Below, piece after piece: positions 22,801 through 62,329 of a DNA stretch of 64,000 nt. The DNA lies in the NCBI RefSeq assembly GCF_000003815.2, contig NC_049990.1, forward strand, positions 8,540,890-8,604,889. Reading direction: 5' to 3'. How positions within the stretch are numbered: the first letter of the stretch is position 1; each line of letters begins with the position of its first letter. Made by a program: the position numbers and the translations under genes. This DNA comes from Branchiostoma floridae. Lineage: Eukaryota > Chordata > Leptocardii > Amphioxiformes > Branchiostomatidae. The notes below the pieces were generated by a model that worked only from the letters and a program-made list of their open reading frames with translations, searched no databases and was not told the origin of the DNA.

Positions 22801-24519
22801 CAGGTAGTCACTTACTACTTGTCTCAAGTTAATTCATCCGGATTATTCAAGACTTTTAAAGGTTACTGGGGAAACGTGTGTAAGTTTGATCTATGGTATA
22901 AACTTGGCTGAAAAGACGGCTAATCCTGCAAATCTGGTTGTTTGGTGGTTCGGATTTAGAGTATGTAGATAAATCACGTACTGAGTCAGACCATGTCCGG
23001 TAATGGCGTGTCTGCCTTCAGGGTTACTAACGGTCACTCGGTGAAAGCGCGTGTCCGAAATGTGGCATATGGGTCAAGGACTCAAATAGCCTCACTAAAA
23101 TTAAGGTATGTCTAATTATTGCGTGGAGCTGGACTTATTTGCAGTATCTCCATGAGAAACAGTTATGGTCTGATTTTGCAATCATAAAAGTGCTCTTTTA
23201 TATCATATTGGTGGTTTAAATAGGATGTCATCTATATTATCAGATCAACATGACCTAACTGAAAAAAAAGAAACTCTAAAATTTTCTTTTTTTTGCAGGT
23301 AAATTATTGACCCACGAGTGGGGCCACCTTCGCTGGGGCCTGTTTGATGAATACGGGTTCGACGATCCTCTGGGAGGGTCCTACCCACACTTCTCTGTAG
23401 AAAACGTGTGATCTCCCTTGATTTTTCAAACATATCGGTATGTAAAATGCATGGGGGCCTAGAAGGACATATAACGACTTCCTTTAAATTTCTTTCTTTT
23501 TGCAGGTAAATTAGTGACCCACGAGTGGGGCCATCTCCGCTGGGGCCTGTTTGACGAGTACGGGTTCGACGATCCGTTAGGAGGGTCCTACCCGCACTTC
23601 TATGTCTCCACCTCCATGGGGATCCAGCCGGTCCGGTGTTCCGCCTACACCGCCGGGTCGTACCAGAATCCCGTCACACAAAGCCGCTGCCAGGTGGACC
23701 CGGCTACCGGACTCCCCGAGGCCGACTGTCGCTTCATTCCCAATCCCAATGGAAACCGCGCCACCGGGTCCTACATGTTCATGCAGTTCTTACCGCAGGT
23801 GAGTCTGAAGTCTTGAAATATTTAAAAACGACTTAGGCCAAATATATTTTTATTATGTGCCAACACAAACTCTCAAAACAAAAAGACTAAAAACTTTAAC
23901 AACATGTCAAGTATTGGAACAATATACTGTAAATGCATTTAAGTTCGTGGGGATTCAATTTCGCGGTAGCGGGAAAAGGACTTTTCGCGGACTGGTGGTT
24001 TTATGTTTTCAGTGGTTCCATGCACTGCAGTCTCTTAATGCCATGGAAAAATGTTCGCGATGGTTTTAAGTTCGCGGTGAAGCGGCCACCGTGGAAACCA
24101 CAAACATCTAAATCACCGCGAAAGTTTCTGCATTTATAGTAATCTAAGATATGCACAATGAATTACGAAATTTTTCGCCATAATGCTAACTCCAGGTGGA
24201 GGAATTCTGTCACGGCGGTCAGCATCTCTTCAGCCAGGGTGGCCAGCCCAACCCGCTCTCGTCTCACAATCGCGAGGCACCCAACAAGCAGAACGCCCTG
24301 TGTAACGGTCAGAGCGCCTGGGACGTCATGAACAAGCACCAGGACTTCGCGAACGGAGCCAACCCGCCCAGGGAAGTGGTGTCGACGGTTCCGGACTTCG
24401 TGCTGCTCCAGGAGAAGGAACCCATGATGGTGCTGGTACTGGACACGTCGGGCAGCATGCGGGTAGGACGGAATACAATTTTGTGAAAAACTTTTCCAAG
24501 AAGGTTATGCTGTCGTTAG

Positions 24520-24584
<65 letters not shown>

Positions 24585-24730
24585 GCACGTGCGTATGTAT
24601 TTCGGTGTGTATGTGTGTTTGTGTATGTGTGTGTGTGTGTGCATGTATGTATTTGTGTGTGTATGTGTGTGCATGTGTATGTGTGTGTGTGTGAGTGTGT
24701 TTGTGCGTGTGTGTGTGTGTGTGGTGTGTA

Positions 24731-24774
<44 letters not shown>

Positions 24775-27700
24775 TGTGTGTTTGTGTGTGTGTGTGTTTG
24801 AAANNNNNNNNNNNNNNNNNNNNNNNNNNNNNNNNNNNNNNNNNNNNNNNNNNNNNNNNNNNNNNNNNNNNNNNNNNNNNNNNNNNNNNNNNNNNNNNNN
24901 NNNGATACTGCTTCCTCGGGTCCACTATTTGACTGTGCAACTTTTCTCCCAAGATATGAATGTTGACTAATCTTGATCTCCAGGTTTTGGAAGCCCAGGG
25001 CGATCAGAGTGGTGGCATCCTGTTTCTATCTGCTCATACAAGACAAAGATTATTTTTGGTCACCAACGCGAGGCTACATAATGAACAAAATTTGGCCAAA
25101 CACGCCCTCCCCCCATCCCAACTATTCTTGATAAGTTGTTTTACGTGCTGAAATTTTACGCCTGGGGCTCCCCTATTCAAGAAACTTAGAGCGCGTCCTC
25201 TAAGGAAGATGCTCTTGCGATTTACCCAAACATTTAACTGTGCCTTGTCCCTCTATGAACTGTTGACTGATCTTGATGTCCAGGTGTTGGAAGCCCAGGG
25301 CGACCCGAGCGGCGGCATCCTGTTCCTTATGAGTGACGGTCAGGAGAACGAACTTCCGGACATCGCGACGGTCACCCCGCAGGTCCTGGCTAAAGGGATC
25401 ATCATAGACACGCTGGCCTACAAGAGAAGCGCCGACCCGCAGATCGAGTCCCTGGCCCTGCTGACCGGGGGGAAGTCGTACTTCTACTCGGGAGAACAGG
25501 GCGACTCCACCGCCCTGAACGACGCCTTCACCGCCTCCGTGCTGTCAAGGGACGATAGAACGGGAGGAGAGGCGACGATACAGGTAAATGCCTTGGAATG
25601 CTATATTCCATATGCACCCGTACGGGATGTAACCAAGGTCGGGATCCGAAGCCACACATTTGTCCCGGTGCACAGTAGGATACCGCGACGGTACCTCTGA
25701 GTCTCAGTGTTTTCACGGTAGCTAACGGCGTCCATTTGTTGTATGGTCCCTAGTTGATTTTGACCCCAACTTGAGAAAAAATCCAAGGGCCCGGAGATGC
25801 CCCGAAATAGCTCGGAAGCCGAAAACAACAACTACTACCACAGCAGCAACCTTGGCATTTCTTGGAGATGGCAAACATCCTCTTAGACAGTTTTGCCTGT
25901 AGAATCTATTTCGTCCGAAAGAAAAATGTAAGGGACTGTTTTATGTTACCTAAAGAGACCTAGGCCATAGGGACGTTAGATCTGAATCGCTGTCTTTCCT
26001 GACCTCAATCACATTCATAGAGCCTCTTTGACGGAGATAATGTTTCATTGACCCTATGGGTTGCATAATTTTTCTGATTTTTCCGAAGGTTATCAGTTAA
26101 CCCTGTTTTGCAGCTTGTCAGTGAAACCAAGACGCTGAACACAGGAGAGAATTACTACAACGAGCTTTACATCGAGAAAAGCGAGGGGAGGAACGCCATC
26201 TTTACCTTCATGTGGAATGGCGGCGTCCCGCCCTTAATTGAGATCATAGCCCCCAACGGCACTGTGATTGGTCAAGGTGACCCGTCCTATCACGTGATGT
26301 CGGACACCATTCAAGTGAATGTTCCGGGTGTAGCACAGGTATGTCTTACCGTCTAAGTATCTTCATTTGACACCGGACGTTCGATCTCAATTTGTTTATA
26401 GATGTGCCCGTGTCTTTTTTATGGTGGCTCATCATAATAGACAGATTCCATAGCCCTCATCGACCATTCTCAAACATATAGAAATGCAGAAAAGCAACAT
26501 AAACAAGCCACTATGGGGCTCCAAAATCTAATGATTTCGAGCTCTCATTAAGATCAACCCACATACCAAACATCAAGATAACCAATACATGCCTTCTCGG
26601 GTAATGCTGTTCATCCACAAAGTACACACATACAAACGCCACTAAAAACTTAACCTTCTTGGCGAAGGTAACAAATAAGAATACTAGATGAGCATGTTGC
26701 CGCAGCCACCTTCTCATTGGTCAAACCGCTTATTGTTATGCTGTCATTGGTGGATTAGCTAATTGTGATGGACAGTCGAAACCGGTCTCTTTACTGATAT
26801 TGAACTGTTTATCATATTCTATCACCAGCCTGGGAAGTGGTCGTACAACATCACCATCGTTGACTACTACTACCAACAAGTGGACATCCTGGCCAGCTGT
26901 AAGGGGGCAACTCCGGACAGCCAGCCTATCAAGGTGACCGCTCAGGTGAGCACGATCTTTTTATTTCTATTTCTAATTTCACTTTTATTTTGCAGAGTAA
27001 AATGCATTTTGCAGAGAAATCACACAAGGCTACACACATCATTGTATTACGTTCAACATGAAAACATTATTCTCTTCGCCAATGGCGATAGAGTATGTTT
27101 TTGTCGACTTGGGTCTGTATGTTGGTCAACAGCATATAACTCGAAAAATTGTAGATGGAACTTTGTGATTTTTGGTAGGTGTGTAGCGGTTGTCGAAAGG
27201 AATGCCAAGTTCGAAAACGGTTTACCTGGCGTTTTCCTACGGTACTGCAGCGAGCTTGGTATGTTTTTTGCAGTTTGTTTTGGGCAGCATAAGTCAAAAT
27301 CTAGCTGGGCGATTTTCAAGAAACTTGGTAGGTGTGTAGCGGTTTTGGAGAGGAAGGTCAAGTGCGAAAATGGTTTACCTGGCTCTTACCTACGGCGCTG
27401 TAGCGGGATTTGTATGTAAGTGCGTTTGTCTGTAAGCAAGATAACTCGAGAACCCTTGAATGGATCCTGATGATATTTGGTAGGTGGGTGGGGGTCAAGA
27501 AAACGAAGGTCAAGTTCGATAATGGGCCCCCTAGTGACTGCCTAAGGTACTGCAGCAAAACTTTTATTTTTGACACTTCGTGTTTTGGATATGCTGTGGT
27601 CATGATTTTTGAGTGGTAGATAGCCCTTGGGGCAGAGAGTAAGTGCTGTGAGTTTGGACCCCCTAGCGGCTTTTTGGGAACTGCAGGCACCGATTTCCTT

Positions 27701-30700
27701 TCAAACTTTGAACGAGAATAACTCGAGAACGTGTTGACGGATCATCAGGATTTTTTGGTATGTAGATAGAATGAGTACTTAAAATAATAATCTACATGGA
27801 AAGATGCATTTAATTGTAATCAGTGGCCAATTAACAGAAATAAACTGTTTTGTATATACATGTATCTAACTTGACCTATATCTATGGACACATCTGTTTG
27901 ACAGATGTTTTTGCTGGAGGAAACACTGACAAGCCGTGAGCTGGACACTGAAAAGCTTGAAATTCTGATTGACCAGGGGTGCTATCAGGTCATCTTGTAC
28001 AATCAGGTCTTGTTTTGGTAGCATTTGTGGGGTTTGGGGGTAGGTACTATTTAGTAATAGATGAATAAGACCTTAAAGTCTTAAATAAAGGCATGATTTA
28101 GTAATACATGAATAAGACCTTAAAGTCTTGAATAAAGGCATGATTATTTGGCGAAGAGATGGGTTCGTTGAACTCTAGTTTTACAATGAATCTGATTATG
28201 ACTATCAAGTTGACATCGTTTACAGATGGAGATCAATACCGTAACATGCGTTTAGACATTTCTGCTTATTGCTTTGTGCTTACACAATATACTCAGGTCA
28301 GCACGATCTCCTTGAACGGCTCCTCCCTCTCCGAGTCCCCGGCCCTGTCCATCCGGGCGTCCGTCACCAAGGGGTACCTTCCCGTAACCGGGGCTACCGT
28401 CACCGCGTTCATAGAGAAGCCGCCTAGCGAGGATGTTGACGAACTGCTCCTGCTGGACAACGGCGCAGGTAAGATCGATCTTCGATCGCAAAACCTATCT
28501 GTCATCATTGTAAAGAAGCTAAAAGATCTCGAATTCACATCCTTAGGCTAATGTCAAATTTCCACAAAGGGGCCCGGTCGGGCAGTTTTGGGGGACGAAA
28601 AGTACGATATAAAACACAACAAAAACACAAAACGGACCAAAAAAAATTTAACAGTATGCTGTGTGAATATCTATCGGCATAAATTAAATTTTTCGTTTCC
28701 GTAAACAGCCCGGCTGGGCCCCGGGTAGGAAATGTGGTGTAGGCCTAAGTAATACTACTTACACTGACACGTATACATGTGCATATTTGTACGGTTATCT
28801 TATTTTACGTCCTGTGTACTTAGCATAACGGAATATATATGTACAATAGATCATAGATCTTCATTCGGAAAAACGATCCTCCTTTTCCTGTTCCTCCTCT
28901 GTCCCTGTCCCTGCCCTTCCCCGTCCCTCCCTCCTTCCCTATGTTTATGCTGACTCCCATGGTGCTGAAATGCCATCAAGTGAATGAAACGTTGTAAAGA
29001 TTTAGAAAATCGGCCGCTGATGCTTTGTGATTGTTCCCAGGTGCCGACGTGACTAAAAACGACGGCGTCTACTCCCGGCACTTCCTGAACTTCACGGCGG
29101 GAGGCCGCTACAGCGTGTCGGTCAAGGTCAACAACGAACAGGGAGAGGCAGCTTCCATTGTCGTGACCGGAACGGCGCGACGTGGTCACAGCGCCGCCTT
29201 GTCCAAGGACGCAGGTATGCAACCTAGTTAAAGCGGGTATTTCATTGGGCCGAGTGTGTCGGCGACAGTCTGCAAAGGACATTCGACAACAACTTGTTGC
29301 GAACAGCTAGCCTGGGTACCATACGGCTGGCAGCTCGCTCCTATGATCGCTTATGCTAGCAGAGTAGCGACTGTATGTAGTGTGCAATAAAAGTCGGAGC
29401 GAGAAGCGACTGTTTATATAATGCAAATGAAAATGGTCGAAACACTCCCAAATTTGACGCAATAATTTGTCGATAACCAGTGATATACCTTACGTTTTAC
29501 TAAAGGATAGTACCATGTGGTTTTAAGTATTTGATGTGGATTGTATCCTTTCATGGATGAAATACTTCAAGGCATTGCTTGGGGTCTATTTTCAGGCTTA
29601 AAACTGAATGGGTGTCGTTTTTCAAAGAATTGTATTAAAAAAAAATACGCTATAACCTATGTATCTTTCCTTTTAGAGGCCTTCGCACTGGACAAAAACG
29701 CAGTGCATTCTGAACCGCTGGATCAGTTCCAGCGGATGGCGCCAGGTGGCGTGTTTGAGCTGACAGACGTTCCCATTGGCGGCCTGTCGCGATTGGACCT
29801 CGGCCCGCCATCTCGGGTCAATGACCTGAAAGTGATAAGGGTGTCGCACGACAACTTGACCGTCGCTCTGTCCTGGACAGCTGTTGGGGACGACCTTGAC
29901 CAAGGAGGACCAGGTGGGCTATTGCCTTCTCTTGTCCTCAAGTTTTATGTTTCGTATACCACCGTAAACCACCTTTGGGCGTAGCACGCCAATCTTATAC
30001 ATTAAGTACAATCTGCGTAAAACTGGAGAGTAAGGTTTGAACCACTCACCCCCTACTCTTTTTCTTGAGCGTTCTTTAGGTGTAGATCTCCTCAAAGTGT
30101 TTGAGCCTAAACCACAGGGCTTTCCATCCAGGAGGACGTCCTTTAAAATCGACGCTAGGTTCTCATTTTCGCCAGAGTCTAGTGAGAGTAAAGAGTAAAG
30201 AGCTTTTTCCAAGGGCCCTCGATCTATAGTAGCTACCAAGGATTCAAACGTAGAACCTTAAGATTCCAAGTCAACAACCCTAATCACAAGACTACCTTGC
30301 CACCGTTTATTTACTCACAAATTGTGTTTTTTATTTCAGCCGCCTTGACCGACCTACGATTTGGCCGAAACTTCACGGAACTTGCCGACGACTTTGAAGC
30401 GTCGAGCGTCGTCGACGACTCGCAAGTGCTGCTGGGAGACCTGACGTCACCCTCGCCACCGGGCACCCTTGAAACCGTCGTCATCCGGGTACCTGAGAGG
30501 GGAGAGAACGTGACCTTCGTGTTCGCCCTTCGGGTGTGTGACACAGTGGGGAACTGTGGACAACCCTCCAACATCGCAGCCGCCAACCTCGAGTACATCC
30601 CAGAACCAACAACACCGCCACCAACAACACCCCTGTCACAACCAAACAAGCCCAACAGCAACACGCTTATCATAGCTGTATCTGTTAGTTGTGGAGTCGT

Positions 30701-30845
30701 TGCTGCAGTGGTCGCCATCTTGGCAGTGTTGTCGGTGAAGCACTGTTGTTGTAAGAGAAAGAAACGAGTATCAGTCACACCGGTCCCAGACGGAATTGCT
30801 TTGGAAAGCGGACAGCCTCCAAATCAACCCTTACCTAAGGCATAA
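19842..30845 (+). CDS. CLCA: CLCA-family protein, gene 1 (two VWA exons missing at an assembly gap)
   Basis: Exons: 19842-20015, 21504-21655, 22173-22315, 23506-23798, 24196-24462, [two exons expected in or near the gap 24804-24903], 25284-25583, 26114-26338, 26829-26945, 28297-28468, 29041-29214, 29677-29913, 30340-30845. Seen exons encode 919 aa; paralogues predict 75 more. The protein has a signal peptide, [14 protein letters not shown] (HExxHxxxGxxDE zinc site, residues 162-174), the VWA MIDAS start DTSGSM (337-342) and the continuation FLMSDGQEN. Beta-sandwich and FnIII-like domains follow, then a Pro/Thr stalk ([11 protein letters not shown]), one membrane helix beginning [10 protein letters not shown], and a Cys/Lys-rich tail. 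CLCA proteins are self-cleaving secretory-pathway metallohydrolases; human CLCA1 acts on the TMEM16A channel through its VWA domain. Oddities: duplicated starts of exons 4 and 8, and an extra intron (26946-28296). Confidence 0.92.
20016..21503 (+). other. CLCA gene 1 intron 1
   Basis: A 1.5-kb intron. I see no second gene and no clear mobile element; one 65-codon open frame near 20943 has no support. Confidence 0.6.
21860..22135 (+). mobile_element. SINE-like repeat
   Basis: Contains GTTCGATCCCTGGCCGAGTC, which resembles a tRNA B-box, followed by CATACCGAATACTTTCAAAA and a tail with GCTGCTTTCTCTGCTTAGC. A tRNA-derived SINE head in CLCA gene 1 intron 2 is the simplest reading. The ends are not defined by a clear target duplication. 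Confidence 0.45.
23299..23397 (+). pseudogene. Partial duplicate of CLCA gene 1 exon 4, with acceptor
   Basis: The acceptor TTTTTTTTGCAG and the first 95 or so bases of exon 4 (coding [19 protein letters not shown] and on to SYPHF) are repeated 207 bases before the real exon at 23506. The copy then runs into intron-like sequence (CTGTAGAAAACGTGTGA) and a stop. That intron-like tail matches sequence upstream of exon 4 in gene 3 (about 53322-53334). It carries the zinc-site code but has no donor. Confidence 0.9.
23925..24141. mobile_element. MITE with TACTGTAAATGCA ends
   Basis: The left end TACTGTAAATGCATTTAAGT and the right end, reverse-complemented (TACTATAAATGCAGAAAC), form terminal inverted repeats. 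Inside are several TTCGCGG/CCGCGAA blocks that pair across the element. It is 217 bp, non-coding, and inserted in CLCA gene 1 intron 4. Confidence 0.75.
24520..24803. repeat. (GT)n-rich microsatellite abutting the gap
   Basis: About 280 bases of GT with GTAT, GC and TTT interruptions, starting 58 bases after exon 5 and running into the N block. It is the likely cause of the assembly gap. Confidence 0.95.
24804..24903. other. Assembly gap of 100 N (placeholder length)
   Basis: Exactly 100 N, a usual placeholder for unknown length. Two CLCA exons (the equivalents of 43385-43509 and 43659-43758 in gene 2) are expected here. Confidence 0.95.
24925..25029 (+). pseudogene. Partial duplicate of the acceptor and start of CLCA gene 1 exon 8
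   Basis: TTGACTAATCTTGATCTCCAG followed by code for [15 protein letters not shown] matches 25236-25330, which begins the real exon at 25284 ([15 protein letters not shown]). After about 46 exon bases the match ends. It sits just after the gap, so a haplotype or assembly artefact is possible. Confidence 0.8.
26490..26685 (-). repeat. Dispersed repeat family R1, minus-strand copy
   Basis: The reverse complement reads CTTCGCCAAGAAGGTTAAG, then GAGAAGGCATGTATTGG, then TTGATGTTTGGTATGTGGG, and ends in AGATTTTGGAGCCCC. This is the R1 order. Located in a CLCA gene 1 intron. Confidence 0.65.
27060..27770 (+). repeat. Dispersed repeat family R1, long plus-strand copy
   Basis: Contains three successive versions of the R1 module (GTAGGTGTGTAGCGGTTGTC at about 27175, GTAGGTGTGTAGCGGTTTTG at about 27327, GTAGGTGGGTGGGGGTCAAG at about 27480). 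Each is followed by an AAGTTCGAAAATGG-like block. It aligns over most of its length with 63380-64000. Confidence 0.75.
28051..28144. repeat. 47-bp tandem duplication
   Basis: Two copies of TTAGTAATAGATGAATAAGA...AAAGGCATGA with two differences. Confidence 0.9.
28543..28748. mobile_element. MITE-like foldback element, copy 2
   Basis: The left end TTAGGCTAATGTCAAATTTCC and the right end reverse-complemented (TTAGGCCTACACCACATTTCC) are terminal inverted repeats with GC-rich inner blocks GGGGCCCGG and CCGGCTGGGCCCC. Same family as 12213-12410. Lies in a CLCA gene 1 intron. Confidence 0.75.
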
Positions 30846-31747
30846 AAGCACTCGTTCTTTAAAGCAGTGCCTTGAAATGTCTTCTTTTCTCTATTAATTT
30901 TTAACGAAAAAACACCAAATGTGAATTTTCTAGCCAAGATAAAAGCAATTTTACGCAGAGCACAAAGCAATTTCATTGCGTTGCCACTTGCGAAACAAAA
31001 ATTATCCAAACAGATCAATCTGCGCCTTATATTCCGCCTTTTTTGTCCCTCATAAACATACTTTTCTACGGCTGCATGCCTTACAAGTTACAACGCACCT
31101 ATCTCGATGGGTTAGTATTGCAGTTACAGTAGGTGACATAAGATCGCTACAAGTCACATTAGAAGCACCGTATTGGAGTTGAATTTTCTTCATGAATAAA
31201 AGACATGAATGCACAATTATGTTTATATCGCATTTCCTTTGTGGAGTTAGGTTTAGATCTGTGTCTCTAGCGGTCTTTCAATGTCGGCCAGCGACTCTTC
31301 AAAGGTTTCCGCTAGGTAAAAGGCAAAGGTGAACGTTCCATAACCTTTCCGAGGCCGTTAGGGCAGTGTCAACGGCACGGTATTGGAAGGTAAAGCCTAT
31401 TCCTCTCCTTCCACTTCCCCTTTCCTCCCCAACCGAAAAAAAATACTATTTTTGCAGCTGTATGGAGCAAGGAAATTAGTGCTGTGTACCTTTCCCAAGG
31501 ACATACCGATTGTAGGTATTCCACAGGTTGGTAGGCATTCCACCATAAAATGCAGCTGTGAAGGGCAATCAACACCCTTGACAACACTATTAGGTTTGTG
31601 TTAAACAAAAACATAAATAAGCCATGTGTTTTATGGTCATTAGCGATCATCACTAAGGGTAAAAAGAAAACAAACAGTGGCGTTACCAAAGGTGCTCATT
31701 TATTGCCTAACGCCGCTGTGTGTGCGTCAGGCGTCAGGTAGCCACGC
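30846..31747 (+). other. CLCA gene 1 3' UTR and intergenic DNA
   Basis: AATAAA at 31195-31200, 350 bases after the stop, is the likely polyadenylation signal. Sequence at about 31604-31680 resembles 48831-48915, upstream of gene 3, marking the shared 5' flank of genes 2 and 3. No gene seen. Confidence 0.6.
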
Positions 31748-33188
31748 AGGGGCCATACCTGCACAGGGGTCTACCGAAATTCCGAAAAGAAACGAAAAGG
31801 AACGAAAAGGAACGTTACTTTCCTTTTCGTTCCTTTTCGCATTTTCGTTACTTTCCTTTTCGTTCCTTTTCGTATTTTCGTTACTTTCCTTTTCGTTCCT
31901 TTTCGCATTTTCGTTACTTTCCTTTTCGTTCCTTTTCGGACTTTCGTTACATTCTTCATACGCTTTTGGTAGCGAAAGTGCGAAAAGGAACGAAGTAACT
32001 AGAATTCATTTACTTGTGGGTGATTGATAAATATCGATTAATATGCATTTTCAGAAGGAGGCAAGATTGTAGCGCTGTTGTTGTATTTTGGTGGCTTCTG
32101 TTCTCCCAAGATGGAAGCGCCGCATGCAAATGACCCGCGATTGTTTACGTCTAATAGAAATCCGGTCAGGAATGATATGCTAATAAACTGCTGCCCCACG
32201 AGCATGACAGCTCCCTTCAACAGGGCCCACAACATAGTTTTCTGGAGACATATCCTCTTGCTCGTTCACGAAAGAAAAGAAAAGCTGTGAAGGGATAGAC
32301 ATGTATACATTGTAAGATTAATGGGAGTATGAAAAAAGGAAGGAAATAGAATTCCCAACACGCTGGGCTCGAACTTCCGCTCTTCGACTTTCCTGGGTTC
32401 GAACCTGCGACCTATATTTCACTAGGGTCTTACAATTTGAGCAATATATATACATGTACTTGTACCTTTGCTAGCATTGCATTTTTTCAAACAACTATAT
32501 CAACATAGCATGGCATTTTAGATTGAAATATGCGCTATCGTTCTCGACATAATCCATTTCTTCTTGTGCAGTTTTGTGATATTAATGTAATATGGATATT
32601 CTAAAGAACGTCATAATCACATTAACAAGTACATGTTTCAAAACCATATCCAGTTGCTTGAGTAACTATTTTTGGCGTATCTTATTACCTGGATGTCTAA
32701 CCTACATCGACGTAACAAGTACATGAACATAGATTTTCATAGATAGGTCTCAACAATATTCATTATTCCATTGAACCATTGTGGTTCTATGAATTTTGTG
32801 GAACAAGCCGCAAAATGCAAAAATAAAGCCCGTTTCATATGCATTTGCAGATTATATTATATCCCCATCGATTTTATTTCGCTTTGCTTCATACTTCGTT
32901 CCTTTTCGTTCCTTTTCGCACTTTCGGTACTTTCCTTTTCGTTCCTTTTCGTTACTATCCTATCTTTTCATTCATTTTCGTTCCTTTTCGCACTTTCGGT
33001 ACTTTCCTTTTTTTGTTCCTTTTCGTTCCTATCCAATCTTTTCGTTTCTTTTCGTTCCTTTTCGCACTTTCGACCCTTTCCTTTTCGTTCCTTTTCTTTC
33101 CCTTTTGCTCCTTTTCGTTGCCTTTCGCTCCTTTTCGTTCTTTTTCTCACTTTCGGTACACCGACGTAGGGGCCATACCTGCCCAGGG
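31748..33188. mobile_element. Foldback-like element with GAAAAGGAACG terminal arrays
   Basis: Bounded by direct repeats (31748-31768 and 33168-33188, 20 of 21 identical, core GGGGCCATACCTGC). Inside, the left end CTACCGAAATTCCGAAAAG... and the right end ...CTTTCGGTACACC are inverted copies. Both carry arrays of the CGTTCCTTTTCG word: four 33-bp units at about 31813-31945 and a 290-bp array at 32890-33160. The middle holds AT-rich DNA, a B-box-like GGGTTCGAACC at about 32398 and a copy of the dispersed repeat at 32642-32712. No transposase frame. The 3' end is 70 bases before the gene 2 ATG. Confidence 0.65.
32642..32712 (+). repeat. Dispersed repeat R2, plus-strand copy
   Basis: Runs CATATCCAGTTGCTTGAGTA...TATCTTATTACCTGGATG and ends TCTAACCTACATCGACG. 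Other copies are at 4559-4666 (minus, rearranged) and 55745-55824 (plus). Confidence 0.75.
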
Positions 33189-42200: not shown

Positions 42201-45200
42201 CTGGAAACCGTGCGACTGCGTCTTACATGTTCATGCATTTCCTTAGCGAAGTGAGATTTTTTTTCCTGTTCTGTTGAGTTATTTCTAATCGAAAATCATA
42301 AAACTAGTTAAGATACAAATGTTAGTCACTGATTGGGACTTATAGCTGTATTGTGAAATCAGTTTACTAATCCACAGTGACCCGAATGTGTTATGTTTGT
42401 AGGTGACCGGTTTCTGCTACAGTAACCCGAATGTGTTATGTTTGTAGATGACCAGTTTGCTACAGTAACCCGGATGTGTTATGTTTGTAGGTGACCGGTT
42501 TCTGCCACAGTGACCCGGATATGTTATGTTTATAGGTGACTGGTTTCTGCCACAGTGACCCGGAAGGAGACCCACTGTCCTACCACAACCGGGAGGCGCC
42601 CAACAAACACAACTCTGTTTGCGGAGGTCAGAGCGCCTGGGACGTCATGAACAAACACCAGGACTTCGCCGGCGGTGCTAACCGCCCTCGAGCAGTCGAA
42701 ACTACGGACCCCGATTTCGTCCTGCTGCAGCAGAGCGATTTCTTCAGGATAGTCCTGGTGTTGGACGTGTCGGGAAGCATGCAGGTGACTATAAGCCAGT
42801 TCACAGTTTAAAGTGCATATGGGCAATGTAATGCGTTGTGGGTAAACGTTAAAATTTAAGTCCTCTGAAATATGACATGGTATCAAGCATATGAACTTTA
42901 CAGCTCATGAACGTGGATAGATTATGGACAGGGACCTTAAACGTTGACATATGTACCCATCTAATTAGAAGATAGATTTTTATCGCTGGGAAAAATAGAA
43001 AAGTGATACTCTTCAGTCTTTTATTGGGATCACACTGTATAATAAATCATTCTGACTTCAAATGAAGCGCGATAGGTTTTCCTGCATGGCCACAAATGTA
43101 GAGATGCCTCCACCCCAGAGGCGTAGCCAAAACGTGTTTCCAACATCGATGTAGCCCATATAACTTTTATAAGGACCTGACCTGAAGTATAATCTGATAT
43201 CAATGAAGCTTCGTCCTGTGCTTAATGTCAAGGATATCCTTATCTAAATGTAAGATAAGTCTGTGGCCAGTCCAAACAGATTACTCATTGTGTAAGATTA
43301 GTTTGTGGATAGTTCAAACATATAAAACATTGATAAGATAATGTTGTGAGCAGCGTAAACATGTTATTGCTCGTATTTTTATAGGGAGAACCGATCCGCA
43401 GGCTGAATCAGGTGGCGAGAAGGTTCATCTGCAGTACGGTGTTCTTCGGTACCTCGGTGGGGGTGGTCACCTTTTCCGAAGATGCTTCGATAGATCATCC
43501 GGTAGTGAGGTATGGTCTGGCTTCTTCGAAAGGCATTTCTTAAGTATCTTGCTGATTCGTACCTTTTTAGTGTATTCTTCGTAATCTTAAACTTAAAATA
43601 TGCCACAGGTGACTGGTTTCCATTGAAGTAATGTAGAAATTTGCTTTCTTTCTTTCAGTGTCAACTCTCCGGCTGTCCGCAATGATTTGATTGCCGCGGT
43701 TCCTACTAGCACAGGTGGTGCCACGTGCATCGGGTGTGGTCTTCTCAAAGGCATTGAGGTAATTGACAAAAGGGGAACAGGAACCCCATTATTAACTTTG
43801 CCGGCCAAGAGGTCTGTCTGTGTGTCTGTAGCCATTGGGAAACGTATTAGACGGAATCGGTAAGAAATTCGCGAAGGTATGACATCTTTAATTTCTTTTT
43901 TGTTAGGCACTGGAGGATGTAGGGCCGCCACAAGGAGGCGTCCTTCTCCTGGTCACGGATGGGGAGGAAAACCGAGACCCACGGATCAGTGACGTCATAC
44001 CAGAGCTCATCACGAAGAGAGTCATCGTCGCTACGATCGCCTTCAGCAGAGGTGCCGACCCCTTGCTGCAGAGCCTGGCGCTGCGGACAGGGGGCCTGTC
44101 GTTCTTCTCAGGGATTCACGACTCCACAGCCCTGGACAACGCTTTCAGCGCCACGTTCGAAGCCACGGCTGGAGGCAAGGGAGTCAAGGTGGGTGCGGAA
44201 GGATTAACCTACATACGTCATATCATATGTCACGCGTAAACCGATTTTGTCATAAGAACATGACAAAGGTTGCAGAACGTACGGCCGAAAATTTCTCATG
44301 GTGCATGTTGAAACGTACTCACACTTAACATTACAACAAAACTACACTATAGTATAGGATACAATACTAGTGCCCAGCACTATTGAGTAGACCACACCGT
44401 AGCCCTAATAGTACATATATCCAATAGTTTAGCAGTATGATTACTAGTATCACTGAACAATGATTCATCATGGTCCCACAGCTCTTGAGTGAAGACAAGA
44501 TCATCACTGGCCGGCAGACCTACGCCAACCACGTGTACGTGGACAACACTGTAGGAGAAAACACCACATTTTCCATCTCCTGGCTCGACGGACGCCGTCC
44601 CACGGTCACAGTAGAGACGCCGCTTGGTCTTGTCATCACCGAAGGAAACCCAATATATGACGTTACATCGGACACGATAACCATTGAGATACCGGGCACA
44701 GCAATGGTACGGATGTATATCCAATCAACATTATAGAAATTTATGATTTTAAAATGCATGAGGTTTATTCTTCATGAGTGATAAAAATACACTGGCCAGA
44801 ATCCTTCTGTAAGTTTTACCGAGTTGATGGTAGAATGTTAACTTAAAAAGGTTTTGTTGTAGATGACATTTTTTCATTTTAAGTTATATATTGCTCAGGT
44901 AGAAATATTTGCGTCAAATTATCACCTCACAGTGTGAAGAAATTGGATTCTGAGTTTATTCACTGTTTTGCAACACAATGGTTATTTTCTGTTCGTGACT
45001 TCCAGCCAGGAAAGTGGGCCTACAACATCACCAACAATGGCCCTGATGAACAGAACATCACCGTCATCGTCACCTCTAATCCTCTCAACAACAACGAACC
45101 CATCACGGTCACCGCACAGGTCAGTACTGTGTCCCTGGACTACTCCTCTTCTCGGCCCACGGCGCTGAAGATCTACGCTTCGGTACGAAGGGGTTATCTG

Positions 45201-47835
45201 CCTGTCATTGGAGCTGTCGTGAAGGTCCTCATCGAGAAACCACCTCATGATCAGGTAGAGGAGATCACTCTCCTGGACAACGGTGCAGGTAAACTGTGTC
45301 TAAATGTTCATATTGACTTTGATTTTGATGATTTAACAACTACGGTTCATGATATCAATTGGGTCTAGACGGTGCACACACCAATTCCGAGATAGTGCGC
45401 GACAAAAATGTGACGAAAGGGTCTCGAGGGTCCGTGTTTGAGATCAAATTTCTCATAATCTGCTGCGAAGTGGCATTTAATACTGGCATGGCTAAAAAGC
45501 GTAAGAAGTGATGTGTTTTTGGTGCAAATTGGTTTTGGGCCCGAGTGTCACTTCCTTGTATTTCTACGCATTGGAAGTGATTCGCCCGTTGTCCCAGATT
45601 CCCCGTCCATATGCGGTCTGTGAGCCGTGTTGCTATGCCTCGCGCGTCGGGTTATTGTAAAAATCTCAGTGTTACGATTTTCTTTATTTTTTGCTTGATT
45701 AATCTTAGATGTATTCTCTTTCCGACAATATCAGTCATTTTCATGACTAAAATATAGGTGATGGGTTTATTTCCCACGTCAAAATTCCCCTTTTTTTGCA
45801 TACTTTTTTACGTGAAAAAAACTTTTCTCCCCCCAAAATTATGACAAGTAGAGAGAGTGAAGAAACTGAAACGTGGCTGTTCTTAAAGCTGGAGTGATAC
45901 CCTTCATTCCCATATACGGCTTTTCTGCTTTAGATTTATTTTCTTGAAGAGACGGCCTCTCGTCTTGAGGGTGCACATCCTCGATTTGAGACCCCAAATA
46001 AACTGGGGTGTGCACTGTAGAATGTCAGTCATCAGTAGAAAGGCCAGGAGCCAACTCAGAAGAAGCTACAAAATAATGAATCAATGCGATCTTGGAGTGC
46101 ATCCGTTGTGCTATGTCGATGAACTTTGAGTTGGTGTAAGCAAACACGTCGACATTTGCAAAATGACAAATATATACTTGTCCTAAGTGAGGGAACAATT
46201 CGGTACAAAGGGACTCCAGGGAGTCCCTTTTTACTCCGCGGAAAGTACACGATATATGTCACTAATGGAGATTCCAAATAAACATACGAACACACCAATG
46301 TACCCCCCCACTATGTTGATAGATTGATAGCACTATCTTTGTGTTTCGCTATTGGTAGGCCTTCAAACTTAATACTTTTATGATCAACTGTTTTTCCCCT
46401 AAGGTGCTGACGGAGCGAGGAATGACGGCATATACTCCCGCTACTTCTTCGGCTTCACCGCCAACGGTCGCTATGGAGTGTCCGTTAAGGTTGACAACAC
46501 CCAGGGGGATGCCGGGTACATCGTCATCAACCGTGCACGAAGCTCTGGTGCTCCACCATTGAACCCAGGTACACGCAATGTCAAACTAACATTTGCAGAC
46601 CGACGTCTCACCGAGTAGTTACGGGCTACCTTTCTGTTAACATTCTTTCGGATGGGCCCCATGCGCATGCATGGCCATGAAGACATTCTTGGCGAATTGA
46701 GAAACCCAATTTCCCAAGATGATATGGCTGTATCAGTATCACGCTTAACAATTGTAAAACCGTATTAAAAAAGGAAAACAAACGACACATTTGGCTTGGG
46801 GTTGCTATCACTTGACAAGTAAAGGAGTCTCATGACTTGCGAGCTTGGCCAAACAAAGAAGCAGATCCAACGAATTTACCTTAGTCTTGTTTGGTTATCA
46901 TTTTTGTAGACACTGGGTACACCAGCGGGGGTAACGTTCAGCAAGAACCACTGGAGCAGTTCCAACGGATGACAACAGGTGGCGTTTTTGAAGTAGATGG
47001 GGTCCCCAGTGGCGGTGTGTCTACACGGGACATGCTGCCGCCGTCCCGGGTGGATGACCTCGCGGTAGTGGAAGTCTCCTACGCTGACGCAACAGTGACA
47101 CTGAGGTGGACAGCGCTGGGTGATGACTTTGATCAGGGAGGACCAGGTGTGTTTGACTGTCTCTTTGTGATTGTTTGAAGTAACGTCTACTACTGATATA
47201 TTTGAGACCAGCATTAAAAAATCAGCGATTCAGAAATACCCACACCTTACCGTTTCAATACCACAGAAGAGAAGGAGAGGAATTGATTGATTGATGGAAG
47301 CCAGAGCAATGGCAACATATTTTGTGAGACTCATCATTTTTCGCGTTTACAAACATGATACATATCTATGTCACTCTCTTTTCCAGCCCACTACGTTGAG
47401 ATCCGTTACGGCCATCATTTTGACCAACTCGCAGACGACTTTCACGGCTCAGCTTCAGTCAACCATTCGCAAGTGCTGCAGGGAAGCCTGACGTCACCAC
47501 CGGAACCCGGCTCCGCGCAGACCATCGTCATCCTCGTGCCAGACCGAGGTGACAACGTCACATTCGTCTTCGCTGTGCGCATGTGCGACGAAGCGGACAA
47601 CTGCGGAGACCCCTCCAACATCGTATCGGCAAATCTCGAGTTCATCCCTGAACCCGTCTATGTCAACGATACGGTCGCCTGGGCCATTGTTGGCTGTGCG
47701 CTTGGTGTGGCCGTTTTGGCCACCATCTTGGCTTTGTTCTATTGCAAAGTCTGGAAGCCAAGAAGCATTAAGCCCGCAAAATCTGCCCAGCTAGCTTCGG
47801 CAAACGACAATCCTGCATTTGTTCCCACTGTGTAG
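33258..47835 (+). CDS. CLCA: CLCA-family protein, gene 2, complete (959 aa)
   Basis: Exons: 33258-33434, 40327-40478, 40993-41135, 41516-41672, 42115-42250, 42536-42784, 43385-43509, 43659-43758, 43907-44188, 44482-44706, 45006-45288, 46404-46568, 46910-47146, 47387-47835. All use GT-AG and matching phases; the sum is 2880 nt. Signal peptide about 1-22 (cleavage near SQA/VFN). The zinc site [13 protein letters not shown] is at 163-175. VWA runs from about 323: MIDAS D332-x-S334-x-S336, T402 (GGATCIGCG) and D431 (LVTDGEEN) are all present, so metal binding should be intact. Then come beta-sandwich and FnIII-like domains (TLLDNGAG..., YSRYFF) and a membrane helix at about 908-929. The 30-residue tail has DNPAF (951-955), an NPxF-type sorting motif. 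An extra intron splits the metallohydrolase exon. Intron 1 is 6.9 kb and holds a LINE. Confidence 0.96.
33439..33632. mobile_element. Short TIR element (MITE) inserted 4 bases into gene 2 intron 1
   Basis: The left end GGGCGCGGTCGTGCGACC and the right end, reverse-complemented GGGCACGGTCACAAAGG, share a 10-base terminal repeat and an inner GTACGATT. It is flanked by TTA on both sides (33436-33438 and 33633-33635), the target duplication typical of PIF/Harbinger elements. After the right TTA the sequence GTTTGC continues as in gene 3 intron 1 (TTAGTTTGCC), which acts as the empty site. 194 bp, non-coding. Confidence 0.8.
33636..36244 (+). other. Gene 2 intron 1, part before the LINE
   Basis: No gene seen. 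There is a (CATACA)n hexamer run at about 34894-34923 and TACGACGATCTTACGAC-type sequence near 35480 related to words at 17510-17530 and 33460, suggesting further short TIR elements. The remaining frames are short. Confidence 0.5.
36245..39720 (+). mobile_element. Non-LTR retrotransposon (LINE), 5'-truncated, with intact long ORF
   Basis: An open frame of more than 1100 codons ends at 39598. It starts inside an APE-type endonuclease domain ([12 protein letters not shown] is the GDFN catalytic block). It continues through a linker to a full reverse transcriptase: [58 protein letters not shown], and the active-site box [10 protein letters not shown] (38111-38140), with W where most LINEs have F or Y. 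Near the C-terminus [20 protein letters not shown] forms a CCHC-type zinc motif. The 3' tail ends in TGTCAATAAAGATTG at about 39700-39714. The early endonuclease half is missing, as usual for truncated insertions. It is in gene 2 intron 1, same strand. The clade is not certain. Confidence 0.93.
39721..40326 (+). other. Gene 2 intron 1, part after the LINE
   Basis: No gene seen. The last about 60 bases (GAATGCAGAATCATGA... to TTCTTCGCTAG) resemble the end of intron 1 in gene 3 and before the fourth-copy exon, showing common descent. Confidence 0.6.
42378..42560 (+). repeat. Four-copy 45-bp array of the exon 5 acceptor, gene 2
   Basis: Units carry TGTTATGTTTGTAG followed by GTGACCGGTTTCTGCCACAG and TGACCCGGAT. 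Acceptor-like AG/exon starts fall at 42403, 42448, 42491 and 42536 (spacing 45, 43, 45). Only the last leads into the full exon ([20 protein letters not shown]). Entry at 42491 would give 14 residues and then TAG, because the acceptor of the next unit is itself an in-frame stop. Confidence 0.95.
45366..46025. mobile_element. Possible foldback element in gene 2 intron
   Basis: AGACGGTGCACACACC at 45367 and GGGGTGTGCACTGTAG at 46006-46020 are inverted relatives near the two ends of a non-coding block; GGTCTCGAGG and TTGAGACCCC also pair. No target duplication was identified. Confidence 0.35.
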
Positions 47836-55200: not shown

Positions 55201-58200
55201 GTTCATACGTTTGCATTGCATTCTTTATCATGACATAGGTATGGTGCTAGTCATCATAGAAGTGATATCATAATTATCAGTTCTCCATTTAAAGCACTAA
55301 TTATAGTAAAACAGACTATATACATACAGCGTTTAAGAAAATAGAGAAGCTATATACAGAGGCGTCTCATCGTCGATGTAAAATCCTGTCTCTGTTTTTC
55401 AGTGTCAACTCTGATGCTGTCCGCAATGACTTGATTGCCGCAATTCCGACAAGCGCAAGGGGTGGCACGTGCATCGGGTGTGGTCTTCGCAAAGGCATCG
55501 AGGTAAGAGTTGAAAACTGTATCATACGCCAAGAATTGTTAAAGTAAAGGACAAAGATGGATACAAGTAATCTCACAAATATCCGTATGACTAAATGCAT
55601 TGATTTTTTCAAAACTTGTAGGAGCTGTAAGTCTTAAAGCACAAAATATTTCTGTTTGAAATATATACCATACATGTATATAGATACATAAAATAAATGT
55701 ACTCGCCTAATATAAATTAATTAAGAAACAGAATATGTTTCCAAAATCATATACAGTTGTTTGGGTACCTGGAATGATATTTGGTGTATCTTACTACCTA
55801 GATGTCTAACCTTCATCGACGTATTAGATGAACCCTTGCAAAGTTTAGGTTCGTATGTTATAAGAACGTCTGATTTCAGGCATTGGAGGCCACAGGACCG
55901 CCGCAAGGAGGCGTCATTCTCCTTATTACTGATGGAGAGGAAACCGATTCCCCACATATCAGTGACGTGATACCAGAGCTTCTGAGAAAGGAAATCATCG
56001 TCGACACGGTCGCTATCAGTCAAAACGCCGACGCCAAACTGGAGAGCCTGGCCGAGGAGACAGGGGGCCTGTCGTTCTTCTCCGGGAATGGCGACTCCAT
56101 AGCCCTGGACAACGCTTTCACTGCAACGTTTGAAGAAACTGGTGAAAGCACAGGAGTCAATGTGAGTACTGAAGGGTTAACCACCCACCATTATCACATG
56201 TAACTGACTTCACGTGTCCAAATCGAAGTAATTTGACATTGGGACAAGATGATTGTTGAGGCAAAGACTTCCGAAACTACGTGGCACTGCTTTATATTGC
56301 GTTTGATCTTTTACTGCATTGTCTTTTTTACTATATACCGTACAATGGTTTATAGATCATAATGTACATTGTCAATAGATATCATATTCACAGCTGCAAT
56401 TCAACATGATTCTACAGCTCCTAAGCGAAGAGCAGACCATCAGTGGGCGACAGACCTACGCCAACCACTTGTACGTGGACAATAGTGTAGGAGAGAACAC
56501 CACGTTTTCCTTCTCCTGGCTCGACGGACTCCGTCCTACGGTCAGGATGGTGACGCCGCTGGATCTTGTCATCACCGAAGGGCACTCGATGTATGACGTC
56601 ACATCGGACACCATCACAATTGAGATACCGGCTACCGCAACGGTATGTAGAAATCTCGAACTCCAGTCCACACGAAAGCAGTGACTGTTATGGCTTGGCG
56701 ATTGATTGCATTGGATTTCTTCTTCAAGAATTGTACCAATACACAGGACTACTAAGTAAATCATTAACAGTATTTAATGGTTTACCAAGTGGATGATATG
56801 AGTTAACCTTCACCAAAGTGGAATTTCCTTCACAATTGTCTGACATATTGTCAAGGTTTGTCCCTTTTGGGGTGGTAACTTGTATCAAAATCGTCACTTT
56901 GCACCAATTGAATTGTGGCTTTACCCTCTTGTTTGTGAATATCATCATTATATTCATACTCACTTGCTGGTCTTGTTGTTTACGTCCAGCCAGGAAAATG
57001 GACCTACAACATCACCAACAATGGCCCCGATAACCAGGATATCACCATCATTGCCACCTCAAACCCCGTTAAGGACAATGAACCCATCAAGGTGACGGCA
57101 CAGGTCAGTACTGTGTCCCTGGACTACTCCTCTTCTCAGCTCGCAGCGCAGAAGATCTACGCTCCGGTACGGAGGGGTTATCTGCCTGTCATTGGAGCTG
57201 TCGTGAAGGTCCTCATCACGAAACCCCCCGATGGTCAGGTGGAGGAGATAACTCTCCTGGATAACGGCGCAGGTAAGCACGCTTTGAAATACCTCTCAAT
57301 TTGCAAATTGACTTGAATTTTATAGATTTCTTAATCACACTAGTTACACTAATATGTGCTTGGTGAAGCCTGCCAACAGTAAACAGGTCAGCAATAAATT
57401 GATTTTACAAAATGATGATTTGTCAAGGTAACAACTGTCCCTTGGTCGGAAAGTAATATGCCAAACCAAAAAAGGATAACAGAATGAGAGAACGATTTAG
57501 CGACATAAAACAAAAGAATAATCAACAATGATGTATAATTCCTTATATTCATGGACCAAGCCGGTTACTTTTGTATTAAACTGCCATTGACTAAGGGTCA
57601 GAGTATAATATATTATGGCTACCTTTTATTGTCTCAGGTGCTGACGCAGTGAAGAATGACGGCATCTACTCCAGATATTTTTTCAACTTCACCGCAGACG
57701 GTCGTTATGGCGTCTCCGTTATGGCCGACAACACAAAGGGGGAAGCGGAATACATCGTCATCAACCGTGCACGCAGCAACGGTGCACTACCGATGAACCC
57801 AGGTAAGTGCAGTTTCTTCAAAATCCAAAATGGCCATTACTGACGATATTGCTCTCTTTTTCAGTGAAATATGCAACATGTTTGAAAGTCTCATTTAAGT
57901 CTTCTCCCCACTCCCCTGATATTAGATAACGCATATACAAACGCAGTAGGAAACGTAAACACATACACTGCCCCCCATACCGTAAACATTACCTTCTGAT
58001 TAAGGTAATTATAGTACGTGTACCTTGATATGAGTAAACAGAGAAACATACTGGCCGATTATGCTTTACAGATGTTTGTTTGTTATAGGCACTGGGTATA
58101 TCAACGGGGGCAACGTTCATCGAGAACCGTTGGAGCAGTTCCAGAGGATGACAACAGGTGGCGTCTTTGAAGTTCAGGGGGTCCCAAGTGGGGGTGTCAA

Positions 58201-60537: not shown

Positions 60538-61317
60538 NNNNNNNNNNNNNNNNNNNNNNNNNNNNNNNNNNNNNNNNNNNNNNNNNNNNNNNNNNNNNNN
60601 NNNNNNNNNNNNNNNNNNNNNNNNNNNNNNNNNNNNNNNNNNNNNNNNNNNNNNNNNNNNNNNNNNNNNNNNNNNNNNNNNNNNNNNNNNNNNNNNNNNN
60701 NNNNNNNNNNNNNNNNNNNNNNNNNNNNNNNNNNNNNNNNNNNNNNNNNNNNNNNNNNNNNNNNNNNNNNNNNNNNNNNNNNNNNNNNNNNNNNNNNNNN
60801 NNNNNNNNNNNNNNNNNNNNNNNNNNNNNNNNNNNNNNNNNNNNNNNNNNNNNNNNNNNNNNNNNNNNNNNNNNNNNNNNNNNNNNNNNNNNNNNNNNNN
60901 NNNNNNNNNNNNNNNNNNNNNNNNNNNNNNNNNNNNNNNNNNNNNNNNNNNNNNNNNNNNNNNNNNNNNNNNNNNNNNNNNNNNNNNNNNNNNNNNNNNN
61001 NNNNNNNNNNNNNNNNNNNNNNNNNNNNNNNNNNNNNNNNNNNNNNNNNNNNNNNNNNNNNNNNNNNNNNNNNNNNNNNNNNNNNNNNNNNNNNNNNNNN
61101 NNNNNNNNNNNNNNNNNNNNNNNNNNNNNNNNNNNNNNNNNNNNNNNNNNNNNNNNNNNNNNNNNNNNNNNNNNNNNNNNNNNNNNNNNNNNNNNNNNNN
61201 NNNNNNNNNNNNNNNNNNNNNNNNNNNNNNNNNNNNNNNNNNNNNNNNNNNNNNNNNNNNNNNNNNNNNNNNNNNNNNNNNNNNNNNNNNNNNNNNNNNN
61301 NNNNNNNNNNNNNNNNN
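60538..61317. other. Assembly gap of 780 N
   Basis: The size is not a round placeholder, so it is probably estimated. Exon 1 of a fourth CLCA copy may lie here. Confidence 0.95.
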
Positions 61318-61739: not shown

Positions 61740-61891
61740 GAAATTTTCACCGAAGCGTCCCGAGACCTGTACGTCGCCACCAACAACCGTACATTTTTCA
61801 AGGAGGTCAAGATTCTCATCCCGAACACCTGGACGAAGAAACCCGAGTACCTCCCAGCAGGGACTAAAACCTTTGAACGGGCTAACGTCAG
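61740..61891 (+). CDS. CLCA: CLCA-family gene 4, exon 2 only (partial)
   Basis: A 152-base exon with acceptor CATCGCTAG and donor GTAAAG, identical in length and phase to exon 2 of genes 1-3. It encodes [20 protein letters not shown], then [20 protein letters not shown] and ends FERANVR. The upstream 60 bases also resemble the ends of intron 1 in genes 2 and 3. Exon 1 is not seen (gap at 60538-61317) and no exon 3 appears in the remaining 2.1 kb. In genes 1-3 exon 3 follows after 0.5 to 0.9 kb. So this is either a copy with a longer intron that continues past the window or a broken fragment. Confidence 0.88.
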
Positions 61892-62329
61892 GTAAAGGTC
61901 TAATTTTAACAATTATCTTGTAGCTTTTAACTTTTGTAGAAAAATCTCTCCATTTTTTTTGGTAATATTTGTGTAAGGATGGGTATACCAAGTCAATCAT
62001 AAACGGAAATAGTATTAAGAAACGTCCTTATTGTAAATACCTGTTCGTTTGCATTAATAGATAACTGTAGCAAAAAGTTTGCGCTAGAGTAAATTCCATA
62101 TTACTGTGTGGGTGTTTGTTGCCTTTTGTTCTAACACTTTCGAAAACTTTGTAACAAGACTTGATTATTCATTACATTTATTTAGTTTTGAATAGTATTT
62201 GAGGACAGAAAACGTGGTAGTTGAAAAAGTTGTGATAACTTGTTTTCGAACTGTTATCTCAATAGTTGTATATATATGTACTTGTGACTTAATGCGATGG
62301 AGGGATGCTATCAATTTTTCATTAGTAGA

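Follow-up and report, generated by a model that had tools for sequence, protein, structure and literature searches.

A CLCA gene with an additional intron

We analyzed a 64,000-nucleotide stretch of the Branchiostoma floridae genome (NC_049990.1, positions 8,540,890 to 8,604,889), here called the window, which lies on contig C12 of the 513 Mb of genome that we searched and which carries the CLCA genes numbered 1, 2 and 3 below. In gene 1, an intron interrupts an exon that is continuous in genes 2 and 3, and the DNA of that intron, its borders and its relatives elsewhere in the genome are the subject of this report. The joined N-terminal exons of gene 1 match the Pfam CLCA N-terminal domain (E 3.9e-61), and its homologous exons, from about 21504 to 30600, follow the order found in genes 2 and 3, bar two exons.

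An earlier note, made from the window alone, had proposed that the 1351-bp intron was gained recently, by insertion with duplication of an AGGT target or by segmental duplication of an AGGT site, and that an insertion bearing a repeat termed R1 had become the intron. Its description of the locus holds: exon alignment gives the same coordinates (Table 1), an 18-bp repeat containing AGGT occupies both borders, and joining AG|GT at the two 18-mers restores the frame; the resulting exon pair, 97 amino acids long, can be aligned with the uninterrupted exon of gene 2 and that of gene 3. Pfam returned no match for the two junction exons of gene 1 or for the gene-2 exon, and only a match below the cut-off for the gene-3 exon (GBD_Tenm3, E 0.21).

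Table 1. Coordinates of the new intron, its parts and the corresponding exons, in window numbering.
Feature	Position	Strand	Basis
Gene-1 exon part 5' of the new intron, ends CTCAG	26829..26945	+	alignment with genes 2 and 3
5' copy of the 18-bp target-site duplication, gives donor CAG|GTGAGC	26941..26958	+	repeat comparison; C237 reads CAG|GTCAGC there
New intron, GT-AG, phase 0, 1351 bp	26946..28296	+	reading frame (splicing inferred)
Retroposon copy, A-tail side (+ strand: T-rich, then GCAGAGTAAAATGCATTTTGCAGAG...)	26959..27069	-	dispersed family; 92% to C237 intron
Helentron-like (HINE-type) element with R1 tandem units, later insertion	27070..28178	+	absent in C237; genome copies; ends uncertain by about two bases (TT shared)
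Retroposon copy, 5'-truncated side, abuts the 3' duplication; TGCTTAT/TGCTTAC inside	28179..28291	-	94% to C237; match ends of other loci
3' copy of the 18-bp target-site duplication, gives acceptor CTCAG| plus coding GTCAGCACGATCT	28292..28309	+	repeat comparison; C237
Gene-1 exon part 3' of the new intron; next donor at 28469	28297..28468	+	alignment with genes 2 and 3; border comparison
Gene 2, same exon without interruption	45006..45290	+	alignment
Gene 3, same exon without interruption	56990..57274	+	alignment

The other CLCA loci are uninterrupted at this position

A search of the same genome with the exon returned 13 matches, two of which, on contig C237, belong to a second copy of gene 1. 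All seven other CLCA loci that cover the position have no intron there: gene 2, gene 3, C248, C19:5.26 Mb, C12:13.54 Mb, C5:7.12 Mb and C12:2.31 Mb, the last of which (L033/L035, C12:2312118-2315460, minus strand) is continuous at the gene-1 position. A match at C10:6.10 Mb (E 0.29) falls short of the junction and was left out of the count. In a tree of the exon (96 columns, with one extra V from the cut in the C12:2.31 Mb row and the C5 row extended 60 nucleotides upstream), gene 1 and C237 form one clade (100/100), while C12:13.54 Mb and C5 stand apart from the rest (96/94) and the order of the others is left open. Because every one of the seven loci is uninterrupted, including the two most distant, loss would have to have occurred several times, and one gain fits, as the earlier note had supposed. 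The CLCA gene at C12:2.31 Mb itself appears to carry a separate intron, 12 nucleotides upstream (PIK|VKAQVS), that contains a duplicated half exon.

A second copy of gene 1 retains a short form of the intron

The gene-1 exon and its counterpart on C237 are identical at 278 of 291 nucleotides (13 differences) and at 96 of 97 amino acids (one difference). C237 aligns with window positions 25274-33004 in pieces of 81-95% identity; beyond these limits the remainder of the 13 kb that was read, interrupted by a gap, is no longer colinear. C237 represents either the second haplotype or a recent duplicate of gene 1. Its intron at the same position measures 237 bp. The window intron consists of the C237 intron DNA plus one insertion of 1109 bp, at 27070-28178 (placement within two bases), such that C237 reads ACATTATTTTACAA where the window reads ACATTA[TTCTCTTCGCC...CTAG]TTTTACAA, the outer brackets enclosing the insertion.

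Comparison of the two gene copies also bears on the border repeat. In the window, the border copies are CTCAGGTGAGCACGATCT (5') and CTCAGGTCAGCACGATCT (3'), identical at 17 of 18 positions with a spacing of 1351; the single change is GTGAG in the 5' copy versus GTCAG in the 3' copy. C237 reads CTCAGGTCAGCA---TCT at its 5' copy, keeping GTCAG and missing three bases (GCA---TCT), and TTCAGGTCAGCACGATCT at its 3' copy, with TTCAG in place of CTCAG. Since every border change is confined to one gene copy, the simplest ancestor would have had a border repeat identical at 18 of 18 positions, and the 5' copy in the window would since have shifted toward a better donor, from GTCAGC to GTGAGC.

An exact search of the genome for the 18-mer, with S at the variable base, found two places, both at the gene-1 intron, and none for the reversed control; the mutated C237 copies escape a search of this kind. 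Scored over 20 positions, the two borders of the new intron agree at 17, as against 3-9 in seven other CLCA introns and a mean of 7.8 (maximum 14) in 56 mismatched donor/acceptor pairs, a comparison limited to the 8 of 13 CLCA intron entries with both borders, five having been dropped for an acceptor that was not read. Statistics on AGGT pairs over a 274-kb neighborhood were left unused: among AGGT sites no more than 3 kb apart, 78 pairs agree at 17 or 18 of 18 positions, and the 25 listed look like tandem repeats, which makes this null uninformative for single-copy DNA. At 28464-28481, the donor of the following gene-1 intron forms a third, partial copy of the 18-mer (14/18); its likeness beyond the splice consensus is probably due to chance.

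Border repeats are common at introns, so the 18-bp repeat alone would prove little. In excerpts of the two papers concerned, direct repeats (4-30 bp, mean 11.4) occur at each of 213 introns examined (PMC11782384), and in Drosophila, 25% of gained introns and 26% of conserved ones have flanking repeats of at least 5 bp (PMC3443670).

A dispersed retroposon family fills the intron

With the 237-bp intron as query, the genome gave 16 matches: C237 itself, the two halves in the window and 13 elsewhere, on C2 (88%), C10, C14, C9, C5, C4, C6, C8 and C18. The C5 copy as query added C14:4970306 and partial copies on C260 and C1. There are at least 17 insertion loci when gene 1 and C237 are taken as one, with two C4 loci 3 kb apart that have a common truncation point, and all counts for the family are lower bounds. 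When three mismatches at most are allowed, a 36-base pattern of the family occurs at five places (control 0), which fits a low-copy family.

Most copies, in gene orientation, begin with a T-rich run followed by ACAGAGTACAGTGCATTTTACAG..., and their opposite ends stop at differing places; the L048 copy is without the tail-side end. The matches of 6 of the 13 other loci reach the gene-1 3' duplication, overlapping it by two bases. Read on the other strand, the family looks like an A-tailed, 5'-truncated retroposon, which would place it antisense in gene 1. A constant A-tail with a variable 5' cut is the pattern left by target-primed reverse transcription, as in long and short interspersed elements (LINEs and SINEs), and target duplications of about 7-20 bp are typical beside the tail of A-tailed retroposons that lack long terminal repeats (non-LTR retroposons). 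Here, direct repeats lie beside the tail in 5 of 14 copies, measuring 14 bp (13/14 identical), 9, 15 (14/15) and 11 bp at four of them, the fifth being gene 1; repeat scores of at least 9 arose in 3 of 182 mismatched flank pairs, which served as the null. This test was not blind, as element ends were placed manually on the basis of BLAST ends, and those of C10a, C14a, C14c and C18 after the duplication had been seen; L048, L056, L057 and the window copy of gene 1 were left out of it. Three of the duplications (11-15 bp) belong to copies that do not form introns, and AGGT occurs in none of these three; the idea that the retroposon prefers AGGT as a target was accordingly dropped, no preference having been seen. 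A search for AGGT upstream of the exact family end found none, with a pattern so strict that it also misses gene 1, C237 and C14.

The C5 and C6 copies align with each other over about 640 bp of the family. On the sense strand, C2, C5 and C6 (with extensions) and C1 hold short open frames only, which were not compared with protein families, and Rfam gave no match at E 0.1 or better in eight family loci; the family may be the 3' end of a LINE or a long SINE. Two copies (L047 and L055) adjoin, by eye, exons of SRCR-like and C-type-lectin-like genes, and the introns that hold these copies were probably not made by them.

The DNA between the 18-bp repeats in C237 is a copy of this dispersed family from border to border, in agreement with the earlier note's proposal of an insertion with AGGT target duplication. 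The same observation bears on whether the intron is instead old. Under that explanation, it was lost from the other genes through complementary DNA or conversion, its border repeat is accidental and the retroposon landed inside it. The C12:2.31 Mb gene does seem to have an intron of its own nearby, gene conversion among these CLCA genes is likely for another exon (see below), and the frequency of border repeats at introns in general (PMC11782384, PMC3443670) points the same way. We nevertheless regard such a history as very improbable, as it requires several losses, leaves the border-to-border fit of the retroposon to coincidence and must accommodate a duplication that runs 8 bases (CACGATCT) past the splice consensus.

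Border direct repeats also arise from the repair of staggered double-strand breaks (excerpt of PMC3443670), in which case a retroposon fragment could have been captured as filler. The fragment keeps the tail-side end of the family and is truncated only at the opposite one, like most of its relatives, and three copies that form no intron have 11-15 bp duplications, all of which target-primed insertion predicts; we judge capture during repair to be very unlikely. A small tandem duplication of an AGGT-bearing exon piece, filled later by repeats, might account for a duplicate of a mere 18 bp, since a tiny tandem duplication plus an insertion could give that. It needs two events, however, and in C237 one retroposon copy makes up the DNA between the repeats, so that this route seems extremely unlikely. 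The earlier note's alternative of segmental duplication of the AGGT site is likewise unneeded, the duplicate being only 18 bp long and the DNA between its copies a dispersed repeat. Tandem genomic duplication as an intron source was rejected on the same ground, that the repeat spans 18 bp only.

The R1 repeats belong to a later, nested insertion

The 1109-bp insertion that separates the two retroposon halves in the window is a discrete element of its own. It has at least 40 high-scoring places in the genome, this one included; among the matches listed (43, with 40 of 4510 candidates scored), 36 are full length at 99-100% identity and 4 partial at 98-100%. Given the 98-100% identity of the 39 other places, the element moved very recently. 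At the 5' end it has TTCTCTTCGCCAA with an adjacent inverted copy, R1 tandem units of about 153 bp lie mid-element, and at the 3' end there are TTTGGCGAAGAG, a weak hairpin (-4.9 kcal/mol, no shuffle control) and CTAG. The 274-kb neighborhood has diverged R1 copies at 63397 and 78941 (window numbering), with the CTTCGCCAA 5' end just ahead, and another CTTCGCCAA 5' end at 117445 without an R1 match.

In its subterminal inverted repeats with an extra inverted 5' copy, its central satellite-like tandem units and its 3' hairpin, weak as that is, the element resembles the HINEs described in excerpts of PMC7492417 and PMC4067079; its TT start, CTAG end and A|T insertion recall proto-Helentron-Pi. 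We call it Helentron-like, or HINE-type, on structure alone, and its ends are placed to within about two bases. Inside the element, a stretch of 34 codons that resembles an exon (27905-28006) has no Pfam match.

Both ends of the element lie inside the retroposon copy and C237 has the empty site, which places the retroposon first and the Helentron-like element later. R1 DNA is thus present in the intron body, as the earlier note had said, but its proposal that an R1-bearing insertion became the intron fails, since the element is nested in the retroposon copy and the 237-bp intron of C237 has no R1. That the element makes up 1109 of the 1351 bp in the window copy is what could be said for it as the maker of the intron; its absence from C237 leaves this explanation with next to no probability. 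The C237 copy and the occurrence of the 1109-bp element across the genome led us to reject R1 as the intron source, short of a precise loss of the element from C237.

Insertion into an exonic AGGT as the probable origin of the intron

We consider it highly probable that insertion of a retroposon copy into an exonic AGGT made the gene-1 intron. In the course of events that we propose, a 5'-truncated copy of about 220 bp, from a low-copy A-tailed retroposon, inserted antisense in the exon, within ...GCTCAGGTCAGCACGATCTCC...; target-primed reverse transcription is the most likely mechanism. A staggered cut duplicated 18 bp including AG|GT, with the upstream duplicate becoming the donor (ancestrally CAG|GTCAGC, in the window now CAG|GTGAGC) and the downstream duplicate providing the acceptor AG. 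The antisense body may have supplied a U-rich tract past the donor and a branch-point and pyrimidine region (TGCTTATTGCTTTGTGCTTAC) ahead of the acceptor. Because spliced removal of everything between restores the old frame, the insertion would have been tolerated and become an intron, which in the window the Helentron-like element with R1 units later entered, so that its length rose from about 242 bp to 1351 bp. The sequences themselves establish the insertion, its target duplication, its place in a dispersed family, the order of the two insertions and the polarity among paralogues; the reverse-transcription machinery, splicing itself, the branch point and the role of the U-rich tract are inferred.

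In the window copy and the C237 copy alike, a reading frame continued through the intron runs into a stop; the donors are CAG|GTGAGC and CAG|GTCAGC, respectively. The branch-point-like motifs TGCTTAT and TGCTTAC, seen by eye about 29 and about 15 bases ahead of the acceptor, come from the retroposon, and either may serve as the branch point; an internal TTTTGCAG is a candidate alternative acceptor. The insertion is older than the split of the two gene copies, which differ at 13 nucleotides and only one amino acid of the exon; the exon looks constrained in the two, suggesting that protein is still made from both.

Several points weigh against this account. Splicing is read from the frame and from constraint rather than from RNA, the C237 donor GTCAGC is non-consensus, and the pyrimidine tract ahead of the acceptor looks weak. 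The polarity comes from paralogues within one genome, and direct repeats are common at intron borders in general, at least in the excerpts cited above (PMC11782384, PMC3443670). Within the family, the T-rich run is not directly beside the C2 copy, 9 of 14 copies have no convincing target duplication (some of them without a known 5' end), and an autonomous partner has not come to light, the open frames being short only. Gene 1 has no match for two exons of genes 2 and 3 (in gene 2, 43378-43518 and 43636-43763), near an assembly gap at 24804-24903, and these two exons leave the intactness of the gene in doubt.

A second insertion between coding pieces

The family copy at C14:1386241 also lies between two coding pieces, in an intron of 576 bp. 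The exon ends ...GACCTGGCCTGCAG; the sequence then runs through GTTTGTTTTATTTT, the T-rich end, and the element, itself interrupted by another insert about 220 bp long, to ...TCTTACCTGCAG|GTGCTCGGCACTGG...; the duplicated CCTGCAGGT, 9 bp long, spans AG|GT. Removal of the 576 bp gives one continuous frame, and the downstream open frame is 555 amino acids long. The family match ends about 12 bases ahead of the acceptor, with some five bases unexplained. Two weak homologues are uninterrupted at the position: C8:11.005 Mb (27% identity, E 8e-4, 749 amino acids) and C9:20.82 Mb (23%, E 3e-3, 1034 amino acids). The C14 protein, which is membrane-protein-like, has no Pfam match.

Taken alone, a 9-bp repeat including AGGT is modest evidence. 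Judged by its layout, the C14 intron appears to have formed by the same design as the gene-1 intron, which makes two intron-forming insertions among the 17 loci, the flanks of the other 15 having been inspected by eye only. We tentatively put forward a possibility to which we give somewhat less than an even chance: that amphioxus can repeatedly gain introns from retroposons mobilized by target-primed reverse transcription, this family having supplied them at least twice (in CLCA gene 1 and the C14 gene).

Relation to known routes of intron gain

Introns made by transposons are already known, and the gene-1 intron is an unusually legible chordate case. Excerpts of PMC3443670 list 35 events of intron gain by AGGT insertion in Oryza, Drosophila, Oikopleura and Zea (its Table 1). 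In that model, the target is a coding AGGT, the duplicated target provides both splice sites and the coding sequence is unchanged, and gene 1 agrees with it: a mobile-element copy fills the intron, the duplication spans AG|GT and 7 of 7 paralogues have the empty exon. It differs from the events described in those excerpts in that an A-tailed retroposon, antisense and 5'-truncated, was inserted with a duplication of 18 bp, and in that two gene copies allow the ancestral repeat to be reconstructed. As for the class of the insert, the constant A-rich 3' end (C2 being the exception), the variable 5' truncation and the target duplications at 5 of 14 copies are those of an A-tailed non-LTR retroposon.

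Introners have been reported in 175 of 3,325 genomes and for the most part fit DNA transposition (Gozashti et al. 2022, PMC9860276). According to excerpts of that paper, they occur in two groups only among animals and land plants, both of them animals, the target-site duplications of families described earlier measure 3-9 bp, and families were kept with at least four introns; the words 'Branchiostoma' and 'chordate' do not occur in its main text. The likeness to our case is that of a mobile family whose copies become introns, and a Florenciella example in the same excerpts takes both splice sites from the insertion site. Here, by comparison, the duplications are of 9 and 18 bp, the retroposon resembles those moved by target-primed reverse transcription and two insertions formed introns; we do not class the family as an introner. 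The titles and abstract openings listed for open-access papers on amphioxus intron gain, Branchiostoma introners, Branchiostoma CLCA and chordate retrotransposon intron gain held no description of this case.

The origin of introns is an open question, since most introns have lost the traces of their birth. At gene 1 these remain legible in the empty paralogues, the target duplication, the element family, the copies with and without the nested insertion and the apparent donor shift from GTCAGC to GTGAGC. The case extends the creation of introns by mobile elements to an apparent retroposon whose duplicated target is long, and to a chordate. If retroposons are indeed a repeatable source of introns in amphioxus, a duplication of 9-18 bp would make an insertion into a coding AGGT ready for splicing, and such insertions would be the RNA-based equivalent, in a chordate, of DNA-transposon introners. 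The case also suggests a search rule for any genome, namely to look for retroposon copies flanked by exonic duplications that hold AG|GT.

Other features of the CLCA genes

Gene 1 has a tandem partial duplication of an exon with its acceptor, at 23279-23398 and 23486-23605 (spacing 207, 89% identity); the upstream copy meets a stop soon past the point of divergence and is a possible pseudo-exon. For the exon at 23478-23810 in gene 1, 53381-53710 in gene 3 and 41515-42253 in gene 2, gene 3 is 81% identical to gene 1 and 68% to gene 2. Similarity by eye extends into the introns flanking this exon in genes 1 and 3, which looks like gene conversion. In gene 2 only, an exon that is continuous in genes 1 and 3 is interrupted by a 442-bp intron (41673-42114) whose borders share AACAG only; this could be another gain, or a loss spread by conversion.

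Tandem units in gene 2 (42372-42565) and gene 3 (54047-54424) repeat an acceptor and exon start, TGTAG|GTGACCGGTTTCT, forming a ladder of possible acceptors ahead of the real exon. A fourth CLCA copy begins at 61740-61892 (82% to a gene-3 exon), after an N stretch at 60538-61317, and eight queries brought up no more exons in the 100 kb beyond it. Between genes 1 and 2, an open frame of 1131 amino acids at 36203-39598 matches the Pfam reverse transcriptase (4.5e-40), together with an endonuclease match below threshold, and is a LINE.

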